Below are positions 7,363 to 7,829 of a stretch of DNA of 64,000 nt, piece after piece (position 1 is the first letter of the stretch; each line of letters starts with the position of its first letter). A program made the position numbers and the translations under genes. Origin of the DNA: Saprospiraceae bacterium. Its GTDB lineage: Bacteria; Bacteroidota; Bacteroidia; Chitinophagales; Saprospiraceae. The notes under the pieces are model-generated. The model ran no database searches and was not told where the DNA came from. It was given only the letters and a program-made list of their open reading frames with translations. The stretch is from assembly GCA_958295895.1 (NCBI GenBank), contig CATQHI010000010.1, forward strand, positions 1 to 64,000, in the 5' to 3' direction.

Positions 7363-7393
7363 TTGCGCAGCTACGTTCAACAACTTACCTTTA
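7363..7393 (+). promoter_or_regulatory. Promoter of the tRNA-Leu gene
   Basis: TTG at 7363-7365 and TACCTTTA at 7386-7393 are 20 bases apart, matching the Bacteroidota -33/-7 arrangement with one mismatch in the last base. The mature tRNA 5' end lies 11 bases downstream. Confidence 0.55.
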
Positions 7394-7403
7394 CCCCCGT
7401 ACC

Positions 7404-7829
7404 GCCCGGATGGCGGAACTGGTAGACGCGCTGGACTCAAGTTCGCACTTCGTATGCTGTCCGAGTCATAATCAGTGGAAGGAACGCTTCCTCTTTGTTT
7501 GACCCACGGAGTGCCGTTGAAATCGACAAGGTCGGTTGACAACATCAGGGTTGCCCGGCAGGAAACTGCCGGAGTAGAACTCGTCAAAGTCGGTGAACGC
7601 TGCGGTGGTGACATCGCTGCCAATACCGAGCCAAGCCCCCACCTGCAAGGGAGTGGGAAGGTGTAGAGACTTGACGGCGAGCACCTAAATCTGTCCTTCG
7701 GGGCGGGCAAGGTGAAGGTAAAGTCCAGACCCCAAACGCCGAGCAGCAGCGGTGGCGGTGAAAGCCGTAGTGGTAAGTAAAATCCAGTTCTCAGTACTGA
7801 GAGTACGGGTTCGATTCCCGTTCCGGGTA
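7404..7829 (+). tRNA. tRNA-Leu interrupted by a group I intron (anticodon UAA, or CAA)
   Basis: The exons are 7404-7437 and 7778-7829 and join to an 86-nt class II tRNA. The acceptor stem is GCCCGGA/TCCGGGT (one G-U pair), the D arm contains GGTAGACGCG, typical of Leu, the anticodon stem is CTGGA/TCCAG, the long variable arm is TCTCA-GTAC-TGAGA, and the T arm is ACGGG-TTCGATT-CCCGT with discriminator A. CCA is not encoded. If the intron ends in the conserved G at 7777, the loop becomes CTTAAAA, giving anticodon UAA. Shifting both boundaries by one base gives CTCAAAA, anticodon CAA. Without removing the intron no 7-nt anticodon loop forms. Confidence 0.92.
7438..7777 (+). ncRNA. Group I (IC3-like) self-splicing intron in tRNA-Leu
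   Basis: About 340 nt with the group I core in the right order, recognised by analogy with the cyanobacterial tRNA-Leu(UAA) intron. P1 is GACTC (7434-7438) with GAGTC (7463-7467). P3 is CTCGT (7580-7584) with GCGAG (7677-7681). P4 is TCGGT (7590-7594) with ACCGA (7625-7629), followed by the J6 signature GCCAAGCC. P7 includes AGAGACTTGACGG (7665-7677) and AAAGTCC (7720-7726). A GAAA-capped hairpin with GC-rich arms lies at about 7554-7572, and a P9-like region precedes the 3' end. No endonuclease reading frame fits inside. The exact splice sites are ambiguous by one base. Confidence 0.9.

Follow-up and report, generated by a model that had tools for sequence, protein, structure and literature searches.

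A group I intron between U33 and U34 of a Bacteroidota tRNA-Leu(UAA) gene and its possible viral descent

The only tRNA-Leu(UAA) gene found in the draft genome is, we hold with high confidence, interrupted by a group I intron between U33 and U34. The gene lies in a 64,000-nucleotide stretch of Saprospiraceae DNA (the window), and we infer the host genus to be Neolewinella. A preliminary description had placed at 7404-7829 a Bacteroidota tRNA-Leu gene whose anticodon loop is split by an insert of about 340 nt, read as a group I intron. Position and length were right (the intron, 7438-7777, is 340 nt), and tRNA detection with introns allowed, a match to the Rfam group I model, covariation and empty sites in related genomes all agree with the assignment. 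Judged from these sequence comparisons, the intron-bearing tRNA-Leu gene is real and is confirmed.

The interrupted gene and the structure of its intron

When introns were allowed, ARAGORN called a tRNA-Leu(taa) with a 340-nt intron at 7404-7829. Its default run, with introns off, returned zero tRNA in the window, which illustrates how a default scan can miss tRNAs that a cell needs. The interrupted gene reads GGACT/C...G/TAAAATCC (slashes mark the junctions), placing the intron between U33 and U34. The boundary GGACT/intron/TAAAATCC is fixed by the uninterrupted gene in 12 of the 21 genus genomes, 11 with exact GGACTTAAAATCC and a twelfth (G552) with one base altered in the 3′ exon. The anticodon is UAA; CAA was ruled out by a separate intact tRNA-Leu(CAA) gene and by the empty sites, which read GGACTTAAAATCC. 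The two tRNA halves do pair, although the word "perfectly" used earlier was slightly too strong, since the acceptor stem contains a single G-U wobble, G1-U72 (by eye). Within the final 30 bases before the tRNA, TAnnTTTG was present at 14 of the 17 genus loci read and absent in the window (which has TACCTTTA), L115 and L131; we take this motif and the TTG-N20-TACCTTTA of the window to be promoter-like.

Running the Rfam group I model (Intron_gpI, RF00028) had been proposed as a check. The match covers 7486-7743 and the full length of the model (positions 1-253). With 651 bases searched it scored 40.5 bits (E 7.4e-9), under the gathering score of 50; for this reason a default Rfam scan of the whole window gave an empty list. 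The introns of five of the six other species of this class pass the gathering score (59.9, 59.5, 53.3, 52.5 and 51.3 bits), and that of L114 falls below it (44.7 bits). Matches of the window to a glutamine riboswitch and other weak Rfam matches were taken as chance.

Covariation was examined in seven class introns (window, L067, L072, L112, L114, L115 and L116), in an alignment that was anchored on the guide motif and ran from there to the 3′ end of the intron. Fifty-two pairs were drawn by hand in P2, P3, P4, P5, P6, P6a, P7, P8, P9.0, P9 and P9a. Over these pairs 98.6% of cells were paired (shuffled mean, 93.9) and 16 of the 52 pairs changed on both sides (shuffled mean, 7.1), values reached by 0 of 500 shuffles in each case; the pairing statistics are favoured by the fact that the structure was drawn on these same seven sequences. 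The 26 further pair types were unexceptional, 76 of 500 shuffles being as high. Sliding the partners by 1 to 3 bases dropped pairing to 26 to 43%. P3, P4, P7, P8 and P9.0 are invariant across the seven introns, so they are compatible with the drawing but carry no covariation. The core thus drawn is complete from P1 to P9.0 and has P3, P4, P6, P7 and P8 helices, P7 (5′ strand GACUU) being the helix that binds guanosine in group I introns; the U before the 5′ splice site pairs with a guide G, and the intron ends in G. The subgroup is putatively IC3.

The intron RNA very probably excises itself. By known group I chemistry, a guanosine held in P7 would attack after U33, and exon 1 would next attack after the last G of the intron; the joined tRNA, predicted to be 86 nt long, would then be processed as usual.

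Table 1. Features of the interrupted tRNA-Leu(UAA) gene (window coordinates)
Feature	Position	Strand	Remarks
Promoter-like TTG-N20-TACCTTTA upstream of tRNA	7363..7393	+	
5′ exon of tRNA-Leu(UAA), up to U33	7404..7437	+	ARAGORN with introns; uninterrupted orthologues
P1 exon strand GACU, last U at splice site	7434..7437	+	Pairs with GGUU 7549-7552; U-G at splice site
Group I intron, 340 nt, U33/U34, 3′-terminal G	7438..7777	+	RF00028, covariation, empty sites
P1 loop, site of HNH frame in relatives	7438..7547	+	No such frame recognised in window
Internal guide sequence G+GGUU of P1	7548..7552	+	In all 7 introns
P2 hairpin CCGGCAG-GAAA-CUGCCGG	7555..7572	+	4/7 pairs change on both sides; 89.8% of cells paired
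P3 5′ strand	7580..7585	+	3′ strand 7676-7681; invariant
P4 5′ strand UCGGU	7590..7594	+	3′ strand 7625-7629; invariant
P5 stem	7599..7620	+	7599-7606 with 7613-7620, single U-U mismatch; 5/7 pairs change on both sides
P6 and P6a	7630..7662	+	3/6 pairs change on both sides
P7 5′ strand GACUU	7668..7672	+	3′ strand 7721-7725; invariant
P8	7682..7714	+	Invariant pairs
P9.0, P9 and GAAA-loop P9a	7729..7774	+	4/9 P9/P9a pairs change on both sides; P9.0 invariant
3′ exon of tRNA-Leu(UAA), U34 to discriminator A73	7778..7829	+	

Insertion site, distribution and mobility

The insertion point lies one base upstream of U34/A35, where the other tRNA-Leu introns of the host family are inserted. Exon GACU pairs with guide GGUU in 8 of 8 class rows (seven species), exon ACUU with guide GAGU in 14 of 15 rows of U34-site introns (the fifteenth giving no clear pairing), and exon GGCU with guide GGCU in 25 of 25 rows of initiator tRNA-Met (fMet) introns, counts that lean towards the expected pairing because guides were sought by class-specific motifs. 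The guide of the window class thus seems matched to the shifted U33/U34 site. A search of genome contigs for the exact U33 junction gave seven stretches. Six hold this intron, under the titles Lewinella, Neolewinella, Lewinellaceae and, once, Bacteroidia bacterium; the seventh, from SAR202, was set aside as a chance match, no tRNA being called and no RF00028 match found there.

Group I introns are frequent in Saprospiraceae, and the window intron is not isolated. The 150 genomes of the family gave 49 RF00028 hits, spread over 34 of them; in the genus 10 of 21 genomes had a hit, and in the phylum 30 of 395. By reading, 46 of the 49 family hits lie in tRNA genes, several of them mislabelled by ARAGORN: 19 in initiator tRNA-Met, 14 in tRNA-Leu at U34/A35, 4 in tRNA-Leu at U33/U34 (two being an overlap pair), 7 in tRNA-Ile(CAU) and 2 in tRNA-Arg(UCU). 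The remaining three are in tmRNA.

Several of these other introns deserve mention in their own right. In six Bacteroidota fMet introns (L041, L045, L052, L057, L063 and L095) there is a long frame; the L063 protein is of the PD-(D/E)XK type and matches PDB 2ost at 1.7e-57, and the other five frames resemble it by eye. We take 2ost to be I-Ssp6803I of a cyanobacterial fMet intron. Introns after U36 of tRNA-Arg(UCU) occur in other families of the phylum (among L080, L082, L083, L086-L088, L090-L092 and L106), and in L080 and L082 the intron lies in a tRNA called Thr that looks Asn-like by eye. The tmRNA hits L034, L035 and L037 are, by eye, group I introns close to the tmRNA 3′ end, and tmRNA introns of Saprospiraceae are already in print (PMC11915505).

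Comparison of the locus in related genomes, another check proposed at the outset, found the intron in 7 of the 21 genus genomes and an uninterrupted gene in 12, the other two (G547 and G556) being assigned to neither group. The downstream neighbourhood is the same with and without the intron, and its carboxylase gene was found next to four of the six other loci that carry the intron and to 7 of the 11 that are empty. On a 12-row carboxylase tree the presence of the intron requires five changes (shuffled mean, 4.1), with no clustering beyond that of shuffles. In the same tree the window falls together with G006 and G545, the latter having an empty site (99/95), and G550 pairs with G557, whose site is likewise empty (100/99). 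The intron tree conflicts with it by joining the window to G550 (100/93).

A putative endonuclease gene lies within the intron in part of the class: a predicted HNH frame is open in three of the seven species (L067, L072 and L115) and shortened in one (L114). In profile searches the protein of L067 hit phrog_10822 at E 3.7e-46; its match to Pfam HNH_3 fell just under the cut-off. No frame of more than 65 residues was found in the introns of the window, L112 and L116 (the last two from genomes G550 and G555), and by eye the beginning of the HNH frame is still visible in L112 and L116. All that the window retains of it is a match of 10 bases at an unchanged offset within the P1 loop (E 0.36), so the case for endonuclease loss from this copy rests on its relatives. 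The earlier remark that the intron lacks an endonuclease gene therefore applies to the window copy and not to the class, in whose six other species the HNH frame is open three times and shortened once. Of the two origins first offered, an ancient relative or a transfer, transfer within the genus is favoured, because presence is scattered and the intron tree conflicts with that of a neighbouring gene. The window-class intron looks mobile within the genus. It would have passed between species through endonuclease-driven homing, and the endonuclease would since have gone from the copy in the window genome.

Viral relatives and the origin of the intron

At least 119 IMG/VR viral contigs carry the U34-class motif. 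Of 80 IMG/VR loci fetched (L143-L222), 53 were called tRNA-Leu(taa) with a group I-like intron, 4 were called another tRNA and 23 gave no clear call. The exact U33 junction occurs in four IMG/VR contigs, two of them distinct, all called tRNA-Leu with an intron. Two viral introns, L262/L264 and L263/L265, are at U33/U34 and did not group with the window class in the free tree. RF00028 matches the viral intron L210 at 57.2 bits; at the limits used it gave no match in L142, L262, L263, L271 and L272, for which reason the introns there are read from tRNA halves and core motifs.

The viral side of these records was examined through their proteins. L142 encodes an HNH protein 57% identical to that of the class, and its core lies outside the window class in trees with viral rows; such HNH proteins are also frequent among phages (225 of 50,697 records). 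Both points weigh against a viral origin. Terminase phrog_2 matched eight of the 25 viral records, two of them weakly, and also 11 of 14 cellular control genomes. Five proteins were compared with PHROGs (two of L210, one of L262 and two of L263) and only the two of L263 matched; the two L210 proteins searched thus gave no phage hallmark for this sister row.

Related inserts were seen in named phages and in plasmids. In Agrobacterium phage Atu_ph07 (L271), which has a named host, an insert of 278 nt lies at U34/A35 of an unannotated gene called as tRNA-Leu(UAA), with no RF00028 match. In Gordonia phage Daredevil (L272) a gene called as tRNA-Lys(ttt) contains an intron-like insert of 238 nt, with no RF00028 match at E 0.01. 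In PLSDB, 1,267 plasmid records match part of the intron-bearing gene at 60 to 80% identity. The match lies close to aac(3)-IId in both records examined (L269 and L270); in L269 ARAGORN calls a tRNA-Stop(tta) with an intron, the gene is Leu(UAA) by eye, and RF00028 scores 36.8 bits.

Trees were built from the intron cores. Of 86 intron loci 14 gave no core, and 58 of the 81 viral loci tried gave one (39 distinct). L032 (a duplicate) and L066 were left out of all trees; L096, L078 and the Ile and Arg rows out of those with viral rows; L070, L095, L101, L040 and viral L195 from the second viral-inclusive tree onward; and L262 and L263, which had very long branches in the preceding tree, out of the final one. 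In three trees with viral rows the window class groups with viral L210 (branch support 100/98, 97/99 and 99/98), and it falls inside the viral set with support of 96/98 and, in the final tree, 99/92. The Neolewinella rows formed one group in 78% of bootstraps in the first viral-inclusive tree, in 26% in the second (where L210 lies inside) and in 94% in the final one; bootstraps were unsettled in the first two of these and in the tree without viral rows. Approximately unbiased (AU) tests on the final tree rejected no alternative (p 0.07 to 0.36): placing the class outside the viral set gave p 0.119, or 0.356 if L210 moves along.

A viral origin of the window class is thus the best-supported branch, although it is unproven. 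The history that we tentatively prefer is that bacterial viruses form a large reservoir of group I introns in tRNA-Leu(UAA) genes, that Neolewinella acquired one of these in its single gene for this tRNA, that the guide of the intron changed and its site shifted by one base, and that it spread with an HNH endonuclease, leaving the reading of UUA dependent on a ribozyme of viral descent. Descent from a virus-borne tRNA-Leu intron, with a one-base shift of the insertion and a matching change of the guide, would be the least certain step.

A different source, possible yet doubtful, is an fMet intron retargeted within the host into tRNA-Leu by a single-base change of the guide from GGCU to GGUU. 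The position after U33 and the geometry of P1 are the same, most introns of both classes start with CA, and AU tests do not reject the grouping with fMet introns (p 0.175 in the final tree; 0.555, 0.259 and 0.194 in earlier trees). However, in seven of seven introns the U34 tRNA-Leu profile gives the core a higher score than the fMet profile does, and the class groups with viral tRNA-Leu introns once these are included. The HNH protein of the class likewise has a relative encoded in a U34 tRNA-Leu intron, whereas the fMet protein tested is PD-(D/E)XK.

It is improbable that the host family's own U34-site tRNA-Leu intron slid by one base. The tRNA is the same, the site is adjacent, P2 and J2/3 are similar, and L077 holds a related HNH protein; grouping the class with host U34-site introns is also tolerated by AU tests (p 0.231 in the tree without viral rows and 0.074 in the final tree). 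That arrangement nevertheless lies 33 log-likelihood units below the free final tree, and branch support places the class with viral introns. A value of p 0.012 against the class with all host U34 rows in the second viral-inclusive tree is not specific, because viral L142 and L149 lie among those rows.

Dependence of the host and comparison with known introns

The host appears to need the intron-bearing gene. Among 37 tRNA hits in the draft genome (96.87% complete) no intact tRNA-Leu(UAA) was found, this tRNA being present only in its intron form, and Leu GAG, CAG, UAG and CAA are separate intact genes; the tRNA list is incomplete, since Asp, Ile(GAU) and Ala(UGC) are missing from it. Of the 464 leucine codons counted in 12 frames of the window, 13 are UUA. 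Exact matching found no uninterrupted tRNA-Leu(UAA) in any of the seven intron-bearing species, a search that misses variants such as that of G552. That the intron is dead or the gene a pseudogene, the cell relying on another tRNA-Leu(UAA), is most improbable even with a draft genome lacking some tRNAs, given that every drawn pair is standard in the window row, that both tRNA halves are intact and that those seven species gave no exact uninterrupted match. The nearest relatives of the intron outside its genus seem to lie in tRNA genes of viral contigs, so a gene that the cell needs may have become home to a mobile element brought in by a virus. The intron would be retained because the host needs tRNA-Leu(UAA) for UUA codons.

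A seeming second copy of the gene on contig C3 was rejected. The start of the window's contig (C10:1-37788) is about 99% identical, in reverse and end to end, to C3:1-37865, which is best read as one locus on overlapping contigs left unmerged in the assembly; a true duplication is less likely. A group I intron after U33 likewise splits the sole initiator tRNA-Met gene found in this genome (L031, G000:C3:457503-457710, minus strand), the two other CAU tRNAs being, by eye, elongator Met and Ile2.

These loci offer a natural series of an empty site, an intron with an endonuclease, introns with a shortened endonuclease or none, and two sites one base apart. Named strains are among its members, for example Neolewinella aquimaris DSM 105137 and N. 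agarilytica DSM 24740. The series lets one test both the retargeting of group I introns and how an essential tRNA becomes dependent on an intron.

The preliminary description had likened the intron, from recall, to the tRNA-Leu(UAA) intron of cyanobacteria and plastids. The likeness holds for the tRNA gene and, we presume, for the order of the core elements. It fails for the site: the cyanobacterial intron is, as we take it, inserted between U34 and A35, one base downstream of the U33/U34 junction found here. Beggiatoa and Thiomargarita belong to the Gammaproteobacteria. Their tRNA-Leu(TAA) and tRNA-Arg(TCT) genes are reported to carry introns (PMC4853749), which may be of group I; like that of the window, these tRNA-Leu introns lie outside the cyanobacteria. 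Group I introns of initiator tRNA-Met are reported for Synechocystis and Gloeobacter (PMC8450103). Those of Saprospiraceae described here are inserted directly after U33, like the window class, but differ from it in their tRNA, in the PD-(D/E)XK endonuclease tested and in forming a separate group in viral-inclusive free trees.

Among the top matches listed from the open-licence literature, no report of a group I intron in a Bacteroidota tRNA-Leu was found. By that comparison the shifted site, the phylum and the possible viral source would be new. A 2014 review (PMC3984707) stated that phage introns had until then all been in protein-coding genes despite many phage tRNA genes, a picture from which the viral tRNA-Leu introns described here differ. 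The IMG/VR viral tRNA-Leu(UAA) introns share their tRNA and core with the window class, L210 being its sister in two of the viral-inclusive trees and L142 carrying a related HNH protein, but most of the set is inserted at U34/A35 and has the guide GAGU.
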